IMG/VR virus record: IMGVR_UViG_3300044950_000923
Location: 1 to 20,764 of that record
DNA from: a virus
Length of the DNA: 20,764 bases
Direction: 5' to 3' (one strand)
Under the pieces are notes generated by a model. The model was not told the origin of the DNA. It worked only from the letters and a program-made list of their open reading frames with translations, and ran no database searches. Numbering within the stretch: position 1 is the stretch's first letter; every line of letters begins with the position of its first letter. This document shows, one piece after another, positions 680 to 20,764 of this stretch. Position numbers and translations under genes: made by a program.

Positions 680-709
680 AAAGATACGAAATTTTTTACA
701 TTTCTCCAA
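680..709 (-). promoter_or_regulatory. Promoter-like element, TTG-N20-TATCTTT (copy b)
   Basis: TTG (709-707) and TATCTTT (686-680) are separated by exactly 20 nt. The -7-like box extends to TATCTTTA, seven of eight matches to TAnnTTTG. The 11-mer AAATTTCGTAT is shared exactly with copy a. It sits in the short gap before the gene starting at 674, so the mRNA leader would be only a few bases. Confidence 0.6.
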
Positions 710-1151
710 CAGCTTCTACTAAAGCTTTTTTAACTGCTCCTGAGAATGCAGTCTTGTTAAATGGTAAGTTATCGTCGTTCAAATCTAAGAATGTTGATTG
801 AACTGTTACGTTTGCTTCTCCTTGACCCCAGTATTCCTCTTTTCCTATTATAAGTCTTAATTTTACAATAGTAATTTTTTTAGTTTTAGAGAATGGACCT
901 AAAGATGTATTTGTGGAAGGTGCTTCAACTGATAGTACTTCTACTTCTACTGGAGTTCCATCTTCACATATGTCATGCTTTTCAGATAGAATTTCTTCTG
1001 TCATTTGTTTAATTCCGAATACAACTCTTTCTTTTTTCATTTCAGGTGCTTCAACTTGTGAAGACACTTTTGTTACTTTATAACATTCCTTAGTAGTTGT
1101 ATCAGCTGATACTAAAAATACTAATGCTAATAATAAAAATAATTTTTTCAT
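696..1151 (-). CDS. Small exported hypothetical protein
   Basis: This 151-aa protein has a clear signal peptide: a KK n-region, a Leu/Val-rich core and a likely cleavage after LVSA near residue 16. There is no lipobox cysteine. The mature part is predicted to be beta-rich with two cysteines (near residues 23 and 61) that could form a disulfide in the periplasm, and it ends in a short helix. I do not recognise the family. It is the last gene of a run of envelope proteins that includes a CsgG-like protein and a putative outer-membrane barrel, so a periplasmic accessory role is plausible by context only. It follows the 22-aa micro-ORF without a visible promoter. Confidence 0.75.
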   Translation of the reverse strand: MKKLFLLLALVFLVSADTTTKECYKVTKVSSQVEAPEMKKERVVFGIKQMTEEILSEKHDICEDGTPVEVEVLSVEAPSTNTSLGPFSKTKKITIVKLRLIIGKEEYWGQGEANVTVQSTFLDLNDDNLPFNKTAFSGAVKKALVEAVGEM

Positions 1152-1236: not shown

Positions 1237-2667
1237 TTAAAATGTCAATTTACCACCTGTTAATATTTGGTAATTTAAAAATTCTTTACCTGCTTCGTAT
1301 ACTCCTGTAAAACTTACATTAAACTTAAATGTCTTAGTTATTTTTAAATCCCATGAATTAAATGGTACTACTATTATGCCAGCATCCCACCATTTACCTT
1401 CGTAGAACTGAGTGAATGGAGAGTATACTCCTAATACAAGTACGCTAGTACTAACTCTATCGCTTAGTTTAAAACTACTATGTGCTCCACCTACAGCTGA
1501 TAGATTCAATAAAGCTCTTTCTCCCATTTTACCTGCTGTAAAATTGACACCAAACATTCCTGTTAGTTTGTTACTTACTTTATATGATTCTAATACTGTC
1601 GTTGTACTAAAGAAATTTTTATCAAAATCCATCATAATGGATTGAGCTCCTACTGTGTTTAATTTTTTAGATTTATTAATCCAGGATTTATAAAAAGTAA
1701 CATTTAAGTTATTAACTCCTGAGGTATAATTGAATAATACTCCTTTGATTCTAGTTCCTCTAGTATTGGCATGAGTTATACTTCCTACAAATCTAAAGTT
1801 CTGAGTTTGATCAGTATTGGCAATAGCTACTATATCTCCTGAGGCAATTAAACTTCCTACACTTTTAGCTGCATTATTAGATTTTTTACCACCGCCTGAT
1901 GTTCCTCCACCGCCTGAACTTCCTCCGTCAGATGATCCTCCATCTACAGAGTTGGATAAAGAGTTAGCTAAATTACTTCCTCCACCGCTTGAACCTTCTA
2001 CAGACGACTCAGACGATGAACCTCCTGTTGAAGCTGGTTGATTTGGACTTGTAGTTTCTCCTCCTTGTTGAGGTGTTCCTGTTGAAGATCCTGTAGGTGT
2101 TCCTCCAGAAGGGTTAGAAGTGGTTTGGCCTCCTTGACTTTGGTTACCTGTTGGGCTTGTTCCAGTAGTTCCTGTATTTGTTCCTGAATTGGTATTTGAA
2201 TCGGATTTTTTTTCATCTTTTGAGTTTTGGTTAGTACTACCTCCTTCACTTTGTGAAGAGTTTGTTACGCCTCCGGCTGTAGCTGTCATAGAGCTTCCCA
2301 TAGATCCTCCTATGGTCGCTATGGATTGAGCTACGTTTGTTACTGATATTACATTTGTAACAACAGTTAATGTGTTAGCAACTGTTACATTGGTTATACT
2401 ATTTACAATAGCTGTAGTTACTGATTCACAAGGTGAGTTTGAATTTTGTTGAGATACTAGAGTTATCCAGTTATCGAAGACTCCTGAGGAGAAGTCATTT
2501 GCAGAAAATGTATTATGGTTATCAAAGTAGTTTACCATTACATTTCCCCCAGCAGGTACGAATACGCTCTTGGATTGTAGTGTACACGGATCTGTATAGG
2601 TGTAGCTGTACTGGGCTGAAGCCTGTAGGAAAGCAAAGAATATAAATAAAGAAATCCATTTTTTCAT
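1237..2667 (-). CDS. Putative outer-membrane beta-barrel protein with long Gly/Ser/Thr linker
   Basis: This 476-aa protein has a signal peptide (residues 1-18, ending ASAQ). The N-terminal domain (about 19-110) includes a Val/Thr/Asn-rich stretch with repeated TNV units. A low-complexity Gly/Ser/Thr/Asn/Gln linker follows (about 125-265). The C-terminal part of about 200 residues has alternating polar/hydrophobic strands (such as NLNVTFYKSW and FKFNVSFTGVYEAG) and ends in a terminal Phe. A C-terminal aromatic after amphipathic strands is typical of outer-membrane barrels, so insertion in the host outer membrane is inferred. The start overlaps the stop of the CsgG-like gene in a TAATG junction, implying coupled translation and a shared job. 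I see no clear match to CsgF or any named porin. A secreted adhesin or virion protein is the alternative. Confidence 0.7.
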   Translation of the reverse strand: MKKWISLFIFFAFLQASAQYSYTYTDPCTLQSKSVFVPAGGNVMVNYFDNHNTFSANDFSSGVFDNWITLVSQQNSNSPCESVTTAIVNSITNVTVANTLTVVTNVISVTNVAQSIATIGGSMGSSMTATAGGVTNSSQSEGGSTNQNSKDEKKSDSNTNSGTNTGTTGTSPTGNQSQGGQTTSNPSGGTPTGSSTGTPQQGGETTSPNQPASTGGSSSESSVEGSSGGGSNLANSLSNSVDGGSSDGGSSGGGGTSGGGKKSNNAAKSVGSLIASGDIVAIANTDQTQNFRFVGSITHANTRGTRIKGVLFNYTSGVNNLNVTFYKSWINKSKKLNTVGAQSIMMDFDKNFFSTTTVLESYKVSNKLTGMFGVNFTAGKMGERALLNLSAVGGAHSSFKLSDRVSTSVLVLGVYSPFTQFYEGKWWDAGIIVVPFNSWDLKITKTFKFNVSFTGVYEAGKEFLNYQILTGGKLTF

Positions 2668-3380
2668 TAGTTCGGAAATATCCCCTTTTTAATCATTTTT
2701 GATACTACTCTTGAAGAGGCAGTTTCTAATGACTTTTTGGTAGATACTCCGATTGTTGATTGATTAAATTTAATATCGTCGAGTCCATCTAATAAGCTTG
2801 CCTTCTTCACTGTAACTGCTTCACCGGATCCTGATCCAGTAATTATTTCACCGCTCTGTGCATCCACAAATCTTACTTGTAACCCTAATATTGTTTTTTG
2901 TCTTATCTCAGCTCCAGAGGTTGAAACTTCTTCATCCTCACCTATGCTGAAATCATAGACTTCTATATAAACAAAATACTTTGCTAATATAACATTTCCT
3001 TTAACTTCTATTTTATTTTCTGATATACCCTTAGCTGAAGCTATGTGTTGAGCAATCATTTTTTGTTTTATTTCTTCTCTGTCTTCTGTAAACTTAAATC
3101 TATTTGTGGACTCTAAATACTCTAATACTATATTTGATACTCCTAAACCAACTCTTTTATCTTTTAGTTCAGGGTACATTTCATATAATTCCTCATTGAT
3201 ACCAATCTTAAGGATCTGAATAGGGATGACTATGTCTCCGCTATAATCAGATACAACCTCTAATGATTGCTTCTTTTCAAAATCGGCTTGGTAGACTTCA
3301 GTTTTAACAGACCCTACTTTTTGAGCAGAGCCTATTATGCTTGCTAATAAAAATAGTATAAATATTAATTTTCTTACCAT
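2667..3380 (-). CDS. CsgG-like protein (curli secretion pore family)
   Basis: I chose the ATG at 3380 because it forms a TAATG overlap with the preceding stop and gives a signal peptide beginning MVRKLIFILF and ending GSAQ; an ATG three codons upstream (3389) is possible. The 237-aa length is close to CsgG. Family-like features are the stretch IVLEYLESTNRFKFTEDREE (where the family has a short helix, then RF.v.ER), an alternating strand pair around YFVYIEVYDF, and LQVRFVDAQSGEIITGSG, matching the lRlvDa.TGeii pattern. CsgG forms a ring-shaped outer-membrane channel for curli subunits. Unlike Escherichia coli CsgG there is no lipobox cysteine, so it would not be lipid-anchored. No curli subunit repeats are evident nearby. 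From memory, CsgG-like genes have been reported in some marine phages, with lysis or exclusion proposed; I could not check this. Confidence 0.75.
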   Translation of the reverse strand: MVRKLIFILFLLASIIGSAQKVGSVKTEVYQADFEKKQSLEVVSDYSGDIVIPIQILKIGINEELYEMYPELKDKRVGLGVSNIVLEYLESTNRFKFTEDREEIKQKMIAQHIASAKGISENKIEVKGNVILAKYFVYIEVYDFSIGEDEEVSTSGAEIRQKTILGLQVRFVDAQSGEIITGSGSGEAVTVKKASLLDGLDDIKFNQSTIGVSTKKSLETASSRVVSKMIKKGIFPN

Positions 3381-4363
3381 TAGAACCAATTTCTTGGATT
3401 AGCTTTACTTTTTTCTATTGCTTTACCTGCATTATTAAGTGCATCTTGAGCTTCTCTTGCTTTTCTATCAAGTACGTCTTGAGCTTCTCTTGCTTGTCTT
3501 TCTAATTCTCTTTGAGCTGCTGCTGCTTCTTCAGCTAATCTTCTCTCAGTTGCTGCAGCTTGTTCTGCTAATACTCTAGCTGCTTCATCTGCTACACGTT
3601 TTGTTTCTGCTGCTGTTTCTTCTGCTACACGTTGTGCTTCAGCTGCTTCTTGAGATGCTAATAAATCTGCTGCTGCTTTAGCCGCTTCTTCTGCCGCTGC
3701 TTTAGCTGCTTCTACTTCATCCGATACATCTATAGTTACTGATGCGTCTACATCTACACCAACTAAAAGTGCTAATTCACCTTCAACTCCTAATGTGATA
3801 GCTCCATCATCGTAAGTAGCTCCACCTCCAACTTCTGCTCCTGCTTGTACCCCTACAGATACTCCTGCATTTGCTTCTGCTGATACATCACCTGATTGTG
3901 CTGTTACTCCTGCTTCTACTCCTACTGATGTTCCCACTGATGCTCCTGCGTTAGCTTCAGCTCCATGTTCTCCTATTGAAGCATTTGCTTCTACTCCTGC
4001 ATGTGCTTCTGCATATGCTCCGGCATGTACTCCTGCTGTTCCGTAATCAGTTTCTACTTCTGTTGAAGCTTCTACCTCTACTTTTACTTCAGCTGTTACT
4101 CCAGCTGATGCTGAAGCGTCATGTCCATCCCATCCTGCTTGTGCTTGTGCTTCTACTGATGCTTCTGCTGTAGCGTGTGCTTCTGAATTAATATCTACTC
4201 CTTCTACAACTTCGGTTGTATTTTCTACATTGGCATGAGCCTCGGCTGATACTCCGGCATTTGCTGATACTGATGTATCTGTTACTTCTGTTCCCGCGTG
4301 TGCTTCTGCTGATGCACCTGCTTGTTCGTTACCTACTACAACTCCGATTGTTTCGTCTGCCAT
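3380..4363 (-). CDS. Ala-rich EAHA-repeat protein with C-terminal coiled coil
   Basis: This 327-aa protein has no signal peptide and no cysteine. Residues 1 to about 200 are low-complexity Ala/Gly/Val/Glu with alternating small and beta-branched residues and recurring EAHA units (for example SAEAHAG and AYAEAHAG), as expected of a beta-rich repeat fold. Residues about 205-315 form a long Ala/Glu/Arg coiled coil (AAKAAAEEAAKAAADLL, then RVAEE- and QAREAQ-type heptads). The tail is NPRNWF. It is translationally coupled (TAATG) to the CsgG-like gene and follows two small membrane proteins. A fibrous or scaffold-like role linked to the envelope genes is suggested by context; a virion fibre is equally possible. 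I do not recognise a named family. Confidence 0.7.
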   Translation of the reverse strand: MADETIGVVVGNEQAGASAEAHAGTEVTDTSVSANAGVSAEAHANVENTTEVVEGVDINSEAHATAEASVEAQAQAGWDGHDASASAGVTAEVKVEVEASTEVETDYGTAGVHAGAYAEAHAGVEANASIGEHGAEANAGASVGTSVGVEAGVTAQSGDVSAEANAGVSVGVQAGAEVGGGATYDDGAITLGVEGELALLVGVDVDASVTIDVSDEVEAAKAAAEEAAKAAADLLASQEAAEAQRVAEETAAETKRVADEAARVLAEQAAATERRLAEEAAAAQRELERQAREAQDVLDRKAREAQDALNNAGKAIEKSKANPRNWF

Positions 4364-4365
4364 TT

Positions 4366-4635
4366 TTATTTATTTTTTTGTATTAATAAATCTTCTATAT
4401 ACTTTTCTCTTTGATCTGTTAAATCTTTTACTCTTTCTAATAAAATTGCTTTATCTTCTTTAGTAGTTTCCTCAATATAAGCCTTTTGAGCCTCATAGAG
4501 TTTTTGCCAATAGGCAACTCTTTCTTCCATCATCACTCCCTGGTACCAGATTATTCCTACCATAACTATTATAGTAAAAGACTGTTCCTTTAGTTTAGAC
4601 AGGAATGTATCCATGAACCCTTTTGTCTCTTCCAT
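4366..4635 (-). CDS. Single-pass membrane protein with C-terminal coiled coil
   Basis: The 89-aa product has a short N-terminal segment, one hydrophobic helix (SFTIIVMVGIIWYQGVMM, about residues 19-36) and a charged coiled-coil tail to the C-terminus. This topology, an inner-membrane anchor with a coiled coil, is that of inner-membrane spanins and also of many small phage membrane proteins. No partner lipoprotein (outer spanin) is evident. It is packed between the other small membrane-protein gene (3 nt upstream) and the EAHA-repeat gene (2 nt downstream), so the three are probably co-translated. Spanin or holin-accessory function is a possibility, not a finding. Confidence 0.65.
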   Translation of the reverse strand: MEETKGFMDTFLSKLKEQSFTIIVMVGIIWYQGVMMEERVAYWQKLYEAQKAYIEETTKEDKAILLERVKDLTDQREKYIEDLLIQKNK

Positions 4636-4638
4636 CTA

Positions 4639-4962
4639 TTACCAAGATTCTTTTTGAGCAGGAGCTGGTGCTGGTGCTGCTTGTTGAACTGGAGCAGGAG
4701 CGGCTTTAGCTGAATTAGAGTTGTTTGATTGTTGTTTTTGTTGGTTGGTGTTGTTGTTCTCCAAATTAACATTAATGACAGGTGCTGCTGCTGGTGCTGG
4801 TGCTACTTGTTCTGTTTTCACTTCTTCTTTATCTTCTGAGTGACCTCCGAATAAAGTTGTTGATACCCAAATACCTGCTCCACCGATTACTGTAGTTAGA
4901 GTTCCGATTAAGGTTTTTTTCAATCCTGATAATCCACCTTCGTTGTTTGTTTCTTCTGACAT
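4639..4962 (-). CDS. Small membrane protein with Ala/Pro/Gln/Asn-rich tail (holin-like candidate)
   Basis: This 107-aa protein has a polar N-terminus, one Gly-rich hydrophobic segment (TLIGTLTTVIGGAGIWVSTTL, about residues 17-37) and a disordered tail with APAPAA and QQA tracts and an Asn/Gln run, ending KESW. It is 3 nt from its neighbours on both sides. The single Gly-rich membrane segment with a hydrophilic tail would fit a holin-like or membrane-scaffold protein, but no diagnostic motif is present. Its tail composition resembles that of the neighbouring Ala-rich repeat protein. Function not recognised. Confidence 0.6.
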   Translation of the reverse strand: MSEETNNEGGLSGLKKTLIGTLTTVIGGAGIWVSTTLFGGHSEDKEEVKTEQVAPAPAAAPVINVNLENNNTNQQKQQSNNSNSAKAAPAPVQQAAPAPAPAQKESW

Positions 4963-4965
4963 AGC

Positions 4966-5697
4966 TTATTTTTTTATTACTTTAAATGTTTTTGCGAAGT
5001 TCTTACTTCTTATATTTAATAAATAGTTACCACTTGGGTAAGCAGTTAGATCTCCATAAGTAGTATTCGGTCCTTTTGCAAAACGTTCTTTCTTTATACT
5101 TAGTTGATTTCCTCCCATGTCGTAAACTGCAATTTCATAATCTCCACTCACTGGTAAAGACATCTCCATTGTTATAATTCCATCTGTAGGTACTGGATAT
5201 ACTTTTCCGTGAATTCCATCTTCATCTAAAGGAGCTGCATACCTATTATAGTTGATATAACCATCTGTATTAGTTACAGCGATATCCCACCCTTGTACAT
5301 TTCCAGCTGTCTTTCTTCCTACGGTTATAGGAGTTGTAGTCCAGTTAGGATTAAGTACTGTAAATTTTAATATGAATAATTCTGTTGGAGCTGTTACAGT
5401 ATGCTGTCCATGTGTTCTATCATATCCTCCCCATCTTACTTTTCCACTTCCGGTATCCATTGTATAGGTTAACCAGGTTTGTGCTTTTTCAGATAAAATT
5501 ATTTCTGAGAATTGTAAAATGCTTTGATCGTAATTTAAAGCAAATTCTAAACTCCCTACTGCATTTCCATTTGTTAGAATAGCTACAGGTAGATCTATGG
5601 TATTAGACGGAGACACTGTAATCCCAGGCACTTGAAATTGTACCTGGGAATAGAGTGAATTTATTGATAACAGTGCTATGATTATATAGCGTAGCAT
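4966..5697 (-). CDS. Exported cohesin-like protein with type IX secretion C-terminal sorting domain
   Basis: The 243-aa product has a signal peptide (MLRYIIIALLSINSLYSQ, residues 1-18). A cohesin-like beta-sandwich follows (about 20-150: IDLPVAILTNGNAVGSLEF, then ALNYDQSILQF), as in cohesin and related Bacteroidetes domains. Residues about 160-243 match a Por/type IX secretion sorting domain: VYPVPTDGIITMEM, YEIAVYDMGGNQL, YPSGNYLLNI and a basic end KTFKVIKK. In Bacteroidetes this domain directs export across the outer membrane and surface anchoring, so the protein should use the host's T9SS. It starts one base after the stop of a second cohesin-like gene. Phage genes with this sorting signal seem unusual. 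The sorting domain is the surer call; cohesin-like is from pattern only. Confidence 0.85.
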   Translation of the reverse strand: MLRYIIIALLSINSLYSQVQFQVPGITVSPSNTIDLPVAILTNGNAVGSLEFALNYDQSILQFSEIILSEKAQTWLTYTMDTGSGKVRWGGYDRTHGQHTVTAPTELFILKFTVLNPNWTTTPITVGRKTAGNVQGWDIAVTNTDGYINYNRYAAPLDEDGIHGKVYPVPTDGIITMEMSLPVSGDYEIAVYDMGGNQLSIKKERFAKGPNTTYGDLTAYPSGNYLLNIRSKNFAKTFKVIKK

Positions 5698-5698
5698 A

Positions 5699-6790
5699 TT
5701 AGTTGCGTCCTGTTCCGTTTGCGTCTCCTAATACTAGAAGATAGTAATTGGCTGCTGTTGTATTGTTAATGTTAGCTGATAAGAATGTTGCTACCCCTGG
5801 AATTGTTGCTGACTGATCTGTTGTAGCTGCTGCAATAGTGTTGTATTGAGCTTCTGTAAAGAATAGTAAATCAGGTGTGTTTGGGTAAACTGATAAACCT
5901 TGAGCCAATCTAGAGAATACTGTATATGAATCTGAAATTGTTATTCCATTTGCTTGGTTAGGGTTAGCAGTATAGAATTGAGTTCCAGTTGGAGCTTGTA
6001 TTCCTGTAGCGATTTGAGCAATCATATTTGCATCTGCTGCTGCTAATGCTCCTGGTGCTGTTAATCCTGGTGCTACTTTTACTCTAATTTGCCAGTAGTT
6101 TTGATCTAAGTTAGTTGTGAATGATGCTACTCCTGTTGTAGTTGCTGTATTAACTGTCATTACATCTACCCAAGTTGTTCCGTTTGAAGATTTTTGTAAT
6201 ATTACTGGAACGTCTGAAGCTGGGTTGGTTGGATCATTTAAGAATGTAGCAGCATAGTTAAATACTGGTTCTGTGAACGCTCCTCCGTAATTATGTAATC
6301 CTAGTGTAGTATCAGTTCCATTTGCTAGAGTACCGTAAGCCGGGTAAGCTGTCGCTCCTGTAAACGCCATTGCTGTTACTGCACCGTTTGTATAACCTGC
6401 TTTAAATGGTAAAGCTACGTTGAACATTGCTCCGTCAGCAATATTGAAAGCAGCATCTGCTCCTGTGTAAACCCATGTAACTGTTACATTTCCTTCAGTA
6501 GCATTTACTAATGTTTGGAAATAATTGTTTGCTTCAGTTCCAGTGTAAGTCACTGTAGGAGAAGCAAATACGTTTTTGTCGTACCAAAATCTGTACTGTA
6601 CTGCTTTGATAGCTGTAGAACCAGCATTATCATAATAAATTGCAACGTTTGTAGGTGTTGCTCCAAGTGGTGCCAGGTTGTAACTAGCGTCAAATATTAA
6701 GTAAGGCTTAGTAGCATCAGGTGCGATAGTTTGTGCAAATCCTGTTAATGATACTAAAACTAAACTCAATACTAAAAGTAATTTTTTCAT
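5699..6790 (-). CDS. Exported cohesin-like protein with dockerin-related C-terminal module
   Basis: This 363-aa protein has a textbook signal peptide (MKKLLLVLSLVLVSLTGFAQ). The N-terminal beta domain (about 25-170: VAIYYDNAGSTAIKAVQYRF, then WYDKNVF) resembles the cohesin-like part of the downstream gene product. The C-terminal 88 residues (276-363) align with the end of the lectin protein: TISDSYTVFSR, then YPNTPD, FTEAQYNTI and ATIPGV. The calcium-loop positions that are Asp/Asn/Asp in the lectin protein are Asn/Asn/Ala here, so calcium binding is probably lost. It ends GDANGTGRN. No type IX sorting domain is visible, so surface retention may depend on a partner. It is coupled to the T9SS-tagged gene through a one-base gap. 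Confidence 0.82.
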   Translation of the reverse strand: MKKLLLVLSLVLVSLTGFAQTIAPDATKPYLIFDASYNLAPLGATPTNVAIYYDNAGSTAIKAVQYRFWYDKNVFASPTVTYTGTEANNYFQTLVNATEGNVTVTWVYTGADAAFNIADGAMFNVALPFKAGYTNGAVTAMAFTGATAYPAYGTLANGTDTTLGLHNYGGAFTEPVFNYAATFLNDPTNPASDVPVILQKSSNGTTWVDVMTVNTATTTGVASFTTNLDQNYWQIRVKVAPGLTAPGALAAADANMIAQIATGIQAPTGTQFYTANPNQANGITISDSYTVFSRLAQGLSVYPNTPDLLFFTEAQYNTIAAATTDQSATIPGVATFLSANINNTTAANYYLLVLGDANGTGRN

Positions 6791-6868: not shown

Positions 6869-7867
6869 TTAGTTGCTATACCCTAGTCTAGTAATATAGT
6901 AAGAAGAAACTCCACCCGATACAGGTGTATTAATTGTAATTGTCTGTACCCCTGGAAATGTTGCTTTCAGGTTTGTTGTACTTGCATTAATTGTACTCCA
7001 TTGAGTTGTTGTAAATATTCTACTGTCTGGAGGGGATGCTGGAAAGGATGTAAATATTCCGTTTCTTCTAGCAAATATTGAATAAGTATCTGATATTGTT
7101 ACTCTACCATCATTATTAACATCAAATCTAAAATAGTCTCTACTCTTTAAAGCCAGTGATCCTAGAGTTACAGTGTTTGAAATCTGTGCATCACTTATTT
7201 GCAATGTAGGTAGGGTTGGAGGAGTAAAAGTTATGTAATATTCTACAGAAGGATTTGTTGGTGTTGAAAATACATATCTCCCTGTTACATCTGTTGTTGC
7301 TGTTGTTACCAAAGTCCAGGGTGTAAAAGTCACTATATAGTCAAATTCTAATACATACGGTAAAGATGTATTTGGTAAATCATTCCATTTACCGTTTCCT
7401 ACAAATTGAGTATAATCTTCATTATTTGAATTATTAGGTTCTCCTGAGTTCCAGTTTCCCCAAGTGTACGGCTCTCCTGTTACCCATCTCCATTGGCCTT
7501 CTACTACTTCATCTGTTAATCCTATCCATCCATCAGACCATAAGTTAAATATAAAGTTATTTTCAGCTGCTGTAGTTACAGTTACTAAATATCCTCCCAT
7601 ATTAGCACAAGCCTGTCTTGCAGCTGTCCATGTCATTGAACTTGTTGATCTATAATAGGAATGTCCGTTATAATTTTGCTGGTTTGTAAATCCTGTTAAA
7701 GTAGGTGTTGTTCTACTATATAACTGCACCTGTACTCCTTGTATACCTGTAGCGTTTGATCCATAGATATAACCAGAGTGCGTAAAGGTTTGACCGTACG
7801 TAGATAAAATACCCCCTAGTATTAGTAGAGGGTATAACATTTTTACTATTTTGGCTAATATATTCAT
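6869..7867 (-). CDS. Exported C-type lectin-domain protein with dockerin-like EF-hand
   Basis: The 332-aa product has a signal peptide (residues 1-26, ending STYGQ). A transthyretin/carboxypeptidase-regulatory-type sandwich begins at about 28-50 (IQGVQVQLYSR) and seems to resume at about 183-215 (TTDVTGRYVF). Between these lies a C-type lectin domain (about 69-175) with WIGL (114-117), the calcium/sugar motif EPN (143-145) and WND (161-163). EPN in animal lectins favours mannose-type sugars. Only one of the usual cysteines is present. The C-terminal module has a dockerin-type loop DVNNDGRVTISD with ligands Asp249, Asn251, Asp253 and Asp260, and is shared with the next gene. Binding of glycans on the host surface or of other cells is plausible; virion display is an alternative. 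Confidence 0.85.
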   Translation of the reverse strand: MNILAKIVKMLYPLLILGGILSTYGQTFTHSGYIYGSNATGIQGVQVQLYSRTTPTLTGFTNQQNYNGHSYYRSTSSMTWTAARQACANMGGYLVTVTTAAENNFIFNLWSDGWIGLTDEVVEGQWRWVTGEPYTWGNWNSGEPNNSNNEDYTQFVGNGKWNDLPNTSLPYVLEFDYIVTFTPWTLVTTATTDVTGRYVFSTPTNPSVEYYITFTPPTLPTLQISDAQISNTVTLGSLALKSRDYFRFDVNNDGRVTISDTYSIFARRNGIFTSFPASPPDSRIFTTTQWSTINASTTNLKATFPGVQTITINTPVSGGVSSYYITRLGYSN

Positions 7868-18331: not shown

Positions 18332-20764
18332 TTAAGCTGGTCCCCAGTATTCAAAATGCCATAATTCATCTGTACCTGATACGTCTGATAATCTCCAAGG
18401 ATTATACCATCCGTGTTTAGCACCCAGTGTTGCCATTTGTTTATAGATAGGAGTTTTTCTTCCTTCTTGATTTCTCTTTGGATCACCGCTTCCATTCACA
18501 ATTCCATGAAGGTTTCCAAAGTCTAATGCTCCTCCCCATCCATGTGGTGATGATCCTGGGCTTGCTACAGTGCTGCCTGGTTTTAATCCTCCTTGGTGTA
18601 CCTTACTTCTATATGCACTGGACATTCTGTAGGAAATTCCTGCAGCTTTCATATCTGCTTTCCAGGCTTTCCATGCTTTAGCAGCTGCTGGATGTAACAT
18701 GTATTCTGGTGCTTTTGTAGCAGGGTTTTTGTAATAAGTACTTGCTCCGCTAGTTTCCCCTATAAATACAAGTAGTTTAGGATTTGTTTGACTTAGTAAA
18801 CCATTCTGTCCTCCATTTGTTTTTGAGTTTGCAACAAGTGGTGATGCATTATAACCTACTGCTCCTACTTTCTTAGGATTAATAATAGGTGCTGGGTCCT
18901 CTCCTGGTTGTACTGGTCCTGGTGGTGTATAATTTGCTGCTCCAACTGCTTTTGGTGAAGGTGGCGGTGTTGGGTTAATTACTTGTGGTTGTCTTGCTTC
19001 TTGTTTTAACTGTTCTAATAAATAAAACTGAGTTGTTACTGAGGTTTCCCATACACTATTGGTACCGATTGTGTGTTCTACCCCTGTTATGATATATCCG
19101 AACTTACCGTTATACTTGTCAGGTAAAAGTCCTGGAGATATTCTAAAGGTTGATGCTATTCTAAGTCCTCCAATACCGTCTAGTTTTAGAGTAAGTTCAA
19201 CAGGTATTGGAGATGGTCCTGCATCTGTTCCTGAAGCCGGTCTTCTTGTTACGTTTTCTACAGTATAGTGAGCGTGTTCTGTTTTTACAGCTTCTAACTC
19301 GTCTTTATCATATCCTCCTCCTGTAAAATCTGTAAAGAATGTTTTTATAGAGTCTTTCCAATCCTGTAGAATTTCTTCTTGATCTGCTTTTACTGCCTCT
19401 TCTCCGTCTTTATTTTTAGCTTGAACATCTTTAGTTACTACAACCCTATCTACAATACCTGGATTCCATTTTAACATGTTCTCCACATTTTCAGAATAGT
19501 TCTGTGTTGTCCCTTGTGCAGCAATAGCAATTTGAGAGGAAGTCTCGTTACTAATTTTACTACTAATACTTATTTCTTTATAGATACTGTTAACCCCTAC
19601 TAGTGTTAATTCTGCAGGTGGTTTGGTTTCTGGTGTTAAGTTTCTATCAATTACGTAAAAAGTTCCTCCTTGATCTTCATCATCGTATGCTATATCAAAA
19701 TCATTTATACCTCCCAGTGCTGTAGATACTCCATCTAGAATACTCTTCAATACATCGGACATACTTTTGTTAAACTTTCCATCTGTATCCAAAGCTTCAT
19801 CAAACTTGCTTTTTAGGTATAGAGAGTTAATATATATATTAAGTACATCACTAGTTATTTCCGCTGGCAGACCTTGGGTAGCTCCGTGTATAAAAGGCAG
19901 TACGCCTAACCCTTCGTCGTTTGGAGCCAGTATTACACATACCAACGGATCCGGTGAAAAGTGCTTAGGACCTGTTATAAACTTTGTGGATTTCTTAATA
20001 TCTGTATTAAACTTACACATAGTAGCATTTGGAGTACCCGGTGTTTTTGTAAGATCTTTTATCGCTACAAAATTATTGTATATATCTAAGATAAGTGCCA
20101 GCGGTACCCAATGCATCGGTGCCTCTGTATCCCAAAGCCAACTATCATCTATTTCAACAGCTGCCCAAAATACTATAAAGTCTTGTAGCGGGGCAGCTAA
20201 TGATGGTGCTTCGCTGGCAAGGGTTTCTTTACCGACTACACCTTGTTTTAGTAATGCTAGTTTTTGTAAGAAGTAGTGGAAGATACTTTTTCTCTGTTCC
20301 TTACCTTCATCACTAGTTGCAGAATCCATTTCATCTTTAGGTATTAAATTACCTGGGGAGAGTTTTACCGGTGCTGATTCTAGTATCTCTCCTGTTGATA
20401 TTATACTTACACTACAGTCGTACCCTCCGTTTGAGTTATAATTCCAAGAAAAGTTTTTACAATACCCAATCATTCCTTCGTAATTGTAATCACTCTCTTG
20501 TCTTATTTTTTTTATTTCATCTGTAATTTTAGACATTTCTAAACCTTTCTTAAAAAATAAGTCTGGGCTTATTGTCTTAATTGTTTTCTCTAATGTAGTA
20601 TCATTATTAATATAAAGAGAATGTCCCCATTCAAGTAGCATTGTAAATCCTGGTCGTAGATAAAGTCTTTCCATTACTTCAAACTCTTCTAAAGACCATA
20701 CAGAAAATTTAACATCTGCTTCTCTTAAGGTACCGTAAGAGAAGCAGATGTTAAATTTTCTGTA
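18332..20764 (-). CDS. Baseplate/tail hub-like protein fused to M15 peptidase (5' end missing)
   Basis: The frame is open from the stop at 18332 to the window edge. The ATG at 20674 is probably internal, since LREADVKFSVWSLEEFEV reads naturally before it and resembles the start of T4-like baseplate proteins; bases past about 20735 look artefactual. The main body (about 780 aa) is structural; ITGVEHTIGTNSVWETSV recalls tail-hub proteins. A Pro-rich linker with two similar units (PKAVGAANY and PKKVGAVGY) leads to a C-terminal M15/VanY-type domain: YRMSSAYRS, SPHGWGGALDF with His711 and Asp718, and ELWHFEYWG with Glu770 and His773 (numbered from ATG 20674), the zinc and catalytic residues. It should cut peptidoglycan peptides during DNA entry, as T4 gp5 lysozyme cuts glycan. 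Confidence 0.85.
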   Translation of the reverse strand, partial: YRKFNICFSYGTLREADVKFSVWSLEEFEVMERLYLRPGFTMLLEWGHSLYINNDTTLEKTIKTISPDLFFKKGLEMSKITDEIKKIRQESDYNYEGMIGYCKNFSWNYNSNGGYDCSVSIISTGEILESAPVKLSPGNLIPKDEMDSATSDEGKEQRKSIFHYFLQKLALLKQGVVGKETLASEAPSLAAPLQDFIVFWAAVEIDDSWLWDTEAPMHWVPLALILDIYNNFVAIKDLTKTPGTPNATMCKFNTDIKKSTKFITGPKHFSPDPLVCVILAPNDEGLGVLPFIHGATQGLPAEITSDVLNIYINSLYLKSKFDEALDTDGKFNKSMSDVLKSILDGVSTALGGINDFDIAYDDEDQGGTFYVIDRNLTPETKPPAELTLVGVNSIYKEISISSKISNETSSQIAIAAQGTTQNYSENVENMLKWNPGIVDRVVVTKDVQAKNKDGEEAVKADQEEILQDWKDSIKTFFTDFTGGGYDKDELEAVKTEHAHYTVENVTRRPASGTDAGPSPIPVELTLKLDGIGGLRIASTFRISPGLLPDKYNGKFGYIITGVEHTIGTNSVWETSVTTQFYLLEQLKQEARQPQVINPTPPPSPKAVGAANYTPPGPVQPGEDPAPIINPKKVGAVGYNASPLVANSKTNGGQNGLLSQTNPKLLVFIGETSGASTYYKNPATKAPEYMLHPAAAKAWKAWKADMKAAGISYRMSSAYRSKVHQGGLKPGSTVASPGSSPHGWGGALDFGNLHGIVNGSGDPKRNQEGRKTPIYKQMATLGAKHGWYNPWRLSDVSGTDELWHFEYWGPA
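20699..20764. repeat. Perfect 29-bp inverted repeat flush with the window end
   Basis: The arm at 20699-20727 is the exact reverse complement of 20736-20764, with an 8-nt spacer AGGTACCG between them. The left arm encodes sensible hub protein (ADVKFSV). The right arm ends at the last base of the window. This is best explained as a fold-back join rather than a biological hairpin. Confidence 0.85.

Follow-up and report, generated by a model that had tools for sequence, protein, structure and literature searches.

The stretch of DNA analysed here (hereafter, the window) is the viral record IMGVR_UViG_3300044950_000923, which is linear and spans 20,764 bases, and whose main genes all lie on the same strand. 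It contains a cassette of genes transcribed in the order tip, g363, coh_T9, tm107, tm89, coil, csgG-like, OMP-like and g696. As had been remarked in an earlier note made from the sequence, coh_T9 shares its genome with DNA replication genes: the cassette adjoins replication and nucleotide genes whose products match the NrdA, NrdB, DnaB-type helicase, exonuclease, UvsX-like recombinase and ssDNA-binding protein families. The features of the cassette are the following (the evidence is reported in brackets):

6869..7867, minus strand: tip protein, with a signal peptide, a C-type lectin, an Ig-like linker and a dockerin-type tail, without T9SS signal
5699..6790, minus strand: g363 adaptor, with a signal peptide, a cohesin fold, an Ig-like/X module and a dockerin-type C-terminus, without T9SS signal
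4966..5697, minus strand: coh_T9 anchor, 243 aa, signal peptide plus cohesin plus T9SS type A sorting domain (Pfam, TIGR04183)
5647..5697, minus strand: Sec-type signal peptide of coh_T9, residues 1-17, followed by Q18 (sequence and heuristic)
5317..5643, minus strand: cohesin domain of coh_T9, residues 19-127 (PF00963)
4969..5202, minus strand: T9SS type A C-terminal sorting domain of coh_T9, residues 166-243 (TIGR04183, PF18962, six-frame search of the record)
4639..4962, minus strand: tm107, small protein with one hydrophobic segment (synteny and homologues)
4366..4635, minus strand: tm89, small membrane protein, optional, in a minority of loci (synteny)
3380..4363, minus strand: coil, Ala-rich coiled protein, optional, inserted in a minority of loci (synteny)
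2667..3380, minus strand: csgG-like exported protein (synteny)
1237..2667, minus strand: OMP-like protein, 476 aa, no family match (synteny)
696..1151, minus strand: g696, small exported cassette protein (signal heuristic 73/87, synteny)

The ORF at 4966-5697 was borne out as a minus-strand gene of 243 codons, and the motifs YPVP, YDMGGNQL, YPSGNYLL and KTFKVIKK were located, as claimed, in the C-terminal region of its product. The last 78 residues are recognised by TIGR04183 (Por_Secre_tail; E 4.7e-10, 39.3 bits, cut-off 23), whose alignment covers residues 166-243 and the entire profile (1-72 of 72), and by PF18962 (E 1.4e-9, 38.6 bits, cut-off 27). Both scores exceed the curated cut-offs, and the HMM match on which the proposal of a Por/T9SS sorting domain hung was thus found. 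The cohesin-like sandwich is likewise matched above its curated cut-off by Cohesin PF00963 (E 6e-8, 33.4 bits, cut-off 24.1, residues 19-127), while a search of PHROGs with coh_T9 gave no match. The N-terminus, MLRYIIIALLSINSLYSQ, has the Sec-type character that had been proposed, according to a heuristic of our own, and presumably follows the pattern of a Bacteroidetes Sec signal. In one related locus (L018, 7951-8676), coh_T9 contains a single in-frame stop directly past the cohesin, the frame of the sorting domain running on beyond it; this is either a sequencing error or a broken copy, and the sequence was left out of set A1.

Concerning the distribution of the gene, the complete 160-kb genome of Flavobacterium phage immuto shows nearly the gene order of the window, without tm89 and coil. 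In a collection of annotated phages, coh_T9 was found in four immuto records (three isolates and one RefSeq copy), with 70% identity over the whole protein; it is annotated there as "cohesin domain-containing protein" only, and the adjoining genes as lectin C-type and hypothetical. The gene is thus carried by a phage genus that was isolated on Flavobacterium, and the host phylum previously proposed, Bacteroidetes, fits. The window itself is a virus record and no host chromosome segment, as its gene order recurs, nearly unchanged, in the complete genome of an isolated phage. A scan of IMG/VR with the coh_T9 protein disclosed 28 viral loci, so that the occurrence of the gene in related phage genomes is established by these and by immuto. 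Profile scans, whose locus sets overlap one another, returned 45 loci with the anchor and 49 with the adaptor; with the csgG-like protein the best 80 of 124 were used and, with the fused scaffold described below, the best 80 of 309, all of the latter being IMG/VR stretches found in one scan. Scanning bacterial genomes with two peptide patterns retrieved one relative, on a contig (L031) of the metagenome-assembled genome (MAG) G018, which carries phage replication genes and the cassette in the same order. Since this sole bacterial relative sits on a phage-like contig, no cellular source was found with the two patterns scanned.

In divergent phages, g363 and coh_T9 form one ORF of about 630-650 aa with the organization Coh-X-Doc-Coh-T9SS signal, to whose residues 1-380, approximately, g363 is homologous. 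Pfam recovered in five of these fused proteins, listed singly, Dockerin_1 (under the gathering score, best 21.8 of 22.9 bits), Cohesin and Por_Secre_tail in this order, and another Cohesin stretch in 4/5; among 50 non-redundant fused members, Por_Secre_tail was matched in 50, Cohesin in 45 and Dockerin_1 in 32 (best E 7.8e-5; the other 18 had no match at E <= 0.1). When the profile of the fused family was compared with the PDB, a dockerin (4uyp_B, 3e-4, both repeats covered), cohesins (6kg8 and 6kgc, 8e-4 and 1e-3) and T9SS sorting domains (8glj_D and 8glk_D, 0.007 and 0.011) were matched, each at the expected place. The AF2 model of one fused orthologue (L113; pLDDT 86.8, pTM 0.68) points in the same direction: its residues 402-540 and 29-183 (the former being the counterpart of the coh_T9 cohesin) were superposed on solved cohesins with Z 14.8 (rmsd 2.5, 136 aligned) and Z 14.0 (rmsd 2.8, 138 aligned), respectively, and residues 27-305 on the cohesin-X-dockerin of CipA (4fl4_I) with Z 14.2 over 228 aligned residues, the rmsd of 9.4 indicating that order and folds agree better than relative placement. 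The C-terminus of the model matches PorU 1058-1156 with Z 9.9, and unrelated Ig-like proteins about equally (Vpr, Z 9.9; RbmA, 9.4). Foldseek against viral models retrieved viral proteins of 363 and 243 aa, which are also the lengths found in immuto. It further retrieved a protein of an uncultured phage that spans the whole scaffold and is called "Secretion system C-terminal sorting domain"; the fused protein, therefore, already bears this automatic name.

As far as g363 of the window is concerned, neither Pfam nor a PDB profile search with this protein alone gave any match, and its own AF2 model, built on 19 rows, reached a pLDDT of 43.8 and was not used for folds; the folds attributed to it are read from the model of the fused orthologue only. 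The split parts the dockerin-type domain from the second cohesin, and both halves have a signal peptide of their own. A tree was built from 94 distinct csgG-like proteins, 67 of them belonging to fused and 27 to split loci; in it, the split rows fall inside the fused ones, with two changes (1-2 in bootstraps). Since the tree has a midpoint root only, near-copies inflate the clustering and the fused row of L113 falls, with unsure placement, among the split rows, it is a suggestion of these sequences that the fused form came first and the split form later. In the split form the T9SS signal is on coh_T9 only, so that g363 would need to bind coh_T9 in order to stay with it; we take this as indirect support for a dockerin-cohesin pairing of the two proteins. 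The earlier interpretation of coh_T9 as a phage product with a full T9SS type A sorting signal stands, and was incomplete in regarding it as a single protein, for it appears to be the anchor of a cohesin-dockerin set of two or three proteins within a larger exported cassette.

The analysis of synteny witnesses the cohesion of the cassette. When loci fetched by the csgG-like gene, split anchors shorter than 225 aa and loci too short on either side are left out, the csgG-like gene is located within 3 kb downstream of 79/79 distinct anchors (31/31 split and 48/48 fused), the OMP-like gene within the same distance of 78/79 (31/31 and 47/48), and tm107 of 48/48 fused and 19/31 split anchors; the tip gene lies nearby in 61/61 cases (22/22 split, 39/39 fused). 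With the csgG-fetched loci included, the csgG-like gene follows 90/90 distinct anchors and the tip accompanies 67/67. ORFs were sought with ATG starts only in these comparisons, which shortened some csgG-like ORFs or missed them. In three relatives (L010, L011 and L015), coh_T9, g363, csgG-like and OMP-like are 79-94% identical to those of the window and nrdA is 72% identical, the dnaB of L011 being 58% identical; since the four cassette proteins are closer to the window than nrdA and dnaB are, the cassette seems, judging from these identities, to be passed from one phage background to another mostly as one block. Not all of its genes follow suit: tm107 is 62-86% identical in the three loci, g696 is 52-53% identical in L010 and L015 and 95% in L011, and the tip is 36-52% identical across approximately half its length in L010 and L015 and 91% in L011. 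In 96/96 distinct tm107 homologues, the C-terminus, past an acidic stretch, is SW (63) or PW (33). The coil protein (3380-4363), between tm89 and the csgG-like gene, contains repeated EAHA/EANAG-type motifs.

The dockerin-type domain links the other members of the set. An HMM built solely from the dockerin-type region of the fused scaffolds matches 108/108 g363 ORFs (41/41 distinct) and, at E < 1e-3, 88 of 92 distinct tip tails (best 9e-25; tip ORFs shorter than 280 aa were left out of the count), while no match was obtained among locus ORFs outside the named families. Three of the four remaining tips lie at 0.0011-0.0019, and the fourth, in L171, has no match and is, on its sequence, probably another LamG protein rather than a tip. 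In 28 whole records, some of which are near-copies, the domain occurs at exactly two places in 27 and at three in that of L008, the two usual places being the scaffold and the tip. Inspection by eye shows a degenerate first EF loop and, in the second loop of g363, N in place of the first D; in the 50 fused members, G249, D262, G272, D285, N287, D296 and G306 are invariant. Dockerin_1 is insignificant in the tip of the window (E 0.075), where Lectin_C is matched with E 2.6e-17, and neither Pfam nor TIGR04183 detected a T9SS signal in this tip or in g363.

The heads of the tips fall into three single-linkage sequence clusters (73, 10 and 9 distinct proteins), within which further head types can hide. 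Pfam, run on 21 of the 98 distinct tips, revealed a C-type lectin, alone or with LamG/Ig-like domains, PA14, or GEVED; the lectin match is under the cut-off in the tips of L114-L117 and L175, no Pfam match was obtained for those of L012 and L127, and none for the head of that of L029. The tips of L029 and L031 share an almost identical tail and differ in their heads (by eye, PA14-like and GEVED-like), which points to the tail as a constant plug and to the head as the variable part. As read from the sequences, then, heads are swapped on a constant tail.

The reading that we consider probable, with some reserve, is that of a phage cohesin-dockerin scaffold that the host T9SS would anchor on the infected cell and that would display a binding domain. 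According to it, coh_T9, g363 and the tip protein would be made together during infection and exported by Sec; the host T9SS would then recognise the sorting domain of coh_T9 and carry it over the outer membrane, leaving it on the cell surface or releasing it nearby. g363 might dock on coh_T9 via dockerin-cohesin pairing, a link that is covalent in the divergent phages, where the two form one chain; the tip might in turn dock by its dockerin-type tail onto a scaffold cohesin, so that its head (a C-type lectin in the window, PA14 or GEVED in relatives) would be displayed on the infected cell, where it could bind a glycan or other surface ligand. As candidate routes, g363 and the tip might cross the outer membrane by piggy-backing on coh_T9 or through the csgG-like/OMP-like pair. 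As for the purpose, receptor masking or superinfection exclusion is our tentative first guess, and the tethering of neighbouring cells or particles a more doubtful second one. Within this reading, the domains and signals, the gene order, the fusion and the swapping of heads come from sequence or structure prediction, and the export through the T9SS, the cohesin-dockerin binding, the display on the surface and the purpose are inferences.

It might be argued that the cohesin, adaptor and lectin proteins are instead parts of the virion (fibres or head decorations) binding host glycans, and that the sorting domain is a mere Ig-like module. Phage C-type lectin and Ig-like domains are frequently virion-borne, the swapping of heads on a constant part resembles that of receptor-binding proteins, and the fold of the sorting domain is, as the Z scores above indicate, a general Ig-like sandwich. 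Nevertheless, a crude heuristic for Sec-type N-termini (a hydrophobic run, a preceding K/R, and a site resembling A-x-A followed by Q) is passed by 35/38 coh_T9, 77/80 fused scaffold, 38/41 g363 and 81/98 tip distinct ORFs, versus 0/130 NrdA, NrdB, DnaB, exonuclease, recombinase, SSB, endonuclease and thioredoxin ORFs from the same loci; moreover, the T9SS signal is matched by the C-terminal domain of all 50 fused members, and the cassette adjoins replication and nucleotide genes. A virion role is, on balance, unlikely. In the same loci, the heuristic is passed by 93/106 csgG-like, 73/87 g696 and just 55/100 OMP-like ORFs.

The last two proteins are the centre of another explanation, in which the cassette is a device for lysis or permeability of the host surface or envelope, the csgG-like and OMP-like proteins forming an outer-membrane pore and the cohesin proteins merely assisting. 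The csgG-like gene is the best-conserved cassette member across distant loci, and PMC9004378 proposes that the CsgG of a marine phage acts in lysis timing. Against this stands the weak membership of the family: PF03783 (CsgG) matches 3/32 members (best E 8.5e-5) and not that of the window, which has no Pfam match at all, E. coli CsgG aligns with the family over 22 columns only (probability 2%), and of two PDB searches one gave no credible match (succinate-CoA ligase only, E 1.5) and the other none. The identity of 2667-3380 as CsgG is thus weakly supported, and "csgG-like" is used as a label only; Pfam searches of ten window proteins gave no curlin match either. The OMP-like protein has a Gly/Ser-rich middle, and no Pfam family was matched; its C-terminal half is likely to be beta-rich, as far as the sequence indicates, and a beta-barrel is a guess. 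Lysis would also have no need of a T9SS tag, of two cohesins or of lectin heads that are swapped, and we give this explanation little credence.

One T9SS signal match was found in each of 18 phage records, and ten in a 19th record, MAG G018, only one of which is the phage's own (C11). Among 50 further records, all have a match at E <= 1e-3, 48 over the cut-off, with a single match in 47 and two in 3; for the 38 of these reached via the csgG-like gene alone, the figures are 38/38 and 36. Overall, 68/68 phage records match at E <= 1e-3, 66 over the cut-off and 65 with only one match, numbers that do not represent a frequency among phages, the records having been chosen for having relatives and some being near-copies. 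A search for SprA, whose sensitivity is unproven because it was silent in all of its 14 control genomes, detected none in 8 phage records and matched MAG G018 in part (61 bits, below the cut-off of 200).

Between the window and its closest relatives (L004, L006 and L008), the dN/dS of the sorting domain is 0.13-0.20. Versus six other relatives, the sorting domain is 46-57% identical with dN/dS 0.35-0.66, whereas the signal peptide and cohesin are 79-93% identical with dN/dS 0.08-0.17, which indicates a weaker constraint on the sorting domain between distant relatives. In L010, for instance, signal and cohesin are 93% and the sorting domain 57% identical to those of the window, and both versions score as T9SS signals; such a pattern fits a signal that would keep its type rather than its letters. 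It could also be read as that of an unused passenger, copied with the cohesin from a host surface protein, and the surface proteins of Bacteroidetes commonly combine domains in a similar way. The match retained in every one of the 68 records, the low dN/dS among the closest relatives, and the C-terminal position kept in both fused and split forms make an unused passenger improbable. Very improbable, finally, is an auxiliary nutritional function as a mini-cellulosome tying polysaccharide to the infected cell, to which the cohesin-dockerin logic and the carbohydrate-binding type of the heads would lend themselves, since no enzyme domain was found by Pfam among the 21 of 98 distinct tips scanned and the dockerin-type domain is limited to two places in 27/28 records.

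The anchored scaffold shares with several known systems some of its parts. Like Bacteroidetes T9SS type A cargo, coh_T9 has an N-terminal Sec-type signal and a C-terminal sorting domain over the cut-off; unlike it, coh_T9 is phage-encoded, and its signal is the only one in 65/68 phage records. The order and folds of cohesin, X module and dockerin-type domain resemble those of cellulosome scaffoldins (Coh-X-Doc of CipA, ScaB/ScaC), which differ in that here the anchoring would be through a T9SS signal, there are just two cohesins, binding domains replace enzymes, and the whole is phage-borne. The use of the host T9SS by a phage was proposed in 2020 for Cryophage, in PMC7468147, where its T9SS cargo, three variable genes (endoglucanase, GH39 and PA14), is presented as "a unique occurrence", and as an idea it is thus not new; phage type A sorting domains and a PA14 head are common to both cases, but the cassette described here has one anchor within a fixed cohesin-dockerin set instead of three variable genes. 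The crAss-BACON ORFs of gut phage lineages similarly join a sorting domain to a putative carbohydrate-binding domain in a phage ORF, and the passages of PMC6949934 concerning them describe no cohesin or dockerin, unlike here. Marine phage CsgG/CsgF genes, as treated in parts of PMC9004378 and PMC7198788, resemble the exported csgG-like gene of the cassette, which differs in its weak CsgG membership and in lying beside a T9SS anchor. A literature search whose coverage stopped short of bioRxiv and most subscription journals revealed no phage cohesin-dockerin scaffold and no T9SS anchor in these phages.

In F. columnare, mutations of gliding/T9SS genes gave resistance to a phage (PMC9233685), and in other flavobacteria gliding proteins are discussed as adsorption targets (PMC13288928). 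A functional T9SS would thus often be present in the hosts of phages of this kind, and surface proteins delivered by it may be phage receptors. If the anchored-scaffold reading is true, phages would reprogram the exterior of infected Bacteroidetes with a modular scaffold, borrowing the phylum's own secretion system, and the cassette would represent a natural T9SS surface-display kit. Relatives are widespread, one of the phages has been isolated along with its host, and every step lends itself to testing. Scaffold and tip domains were also observed on contigs of 205-434 kb (L121, L146, L147, L183, L186 and L238), and are thus present in jumbo-sized phages as well. It is quite conceivable that many large Bacteroidetes phages, including those represented by jumbo-sized contigs, carry a self-contained display machine fixed by the T9SS, with an exchangeable tip, i.e., a programmable lectin coat that would block rivals or capture neighbours.

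Two further observations concern the surroundings of the cassette. In L034, ORFs that, judging from their sequence ends, we take to be GroES- and GroEL-like (2772-4710) lie upstream of it. In the window, the large protein running off the end (18332-20764) had no PHROG match at E 0.01; presumably, its C-terminal part resembles a peptidoglycan peptidase, and the remainder is tail/baseplate-like.
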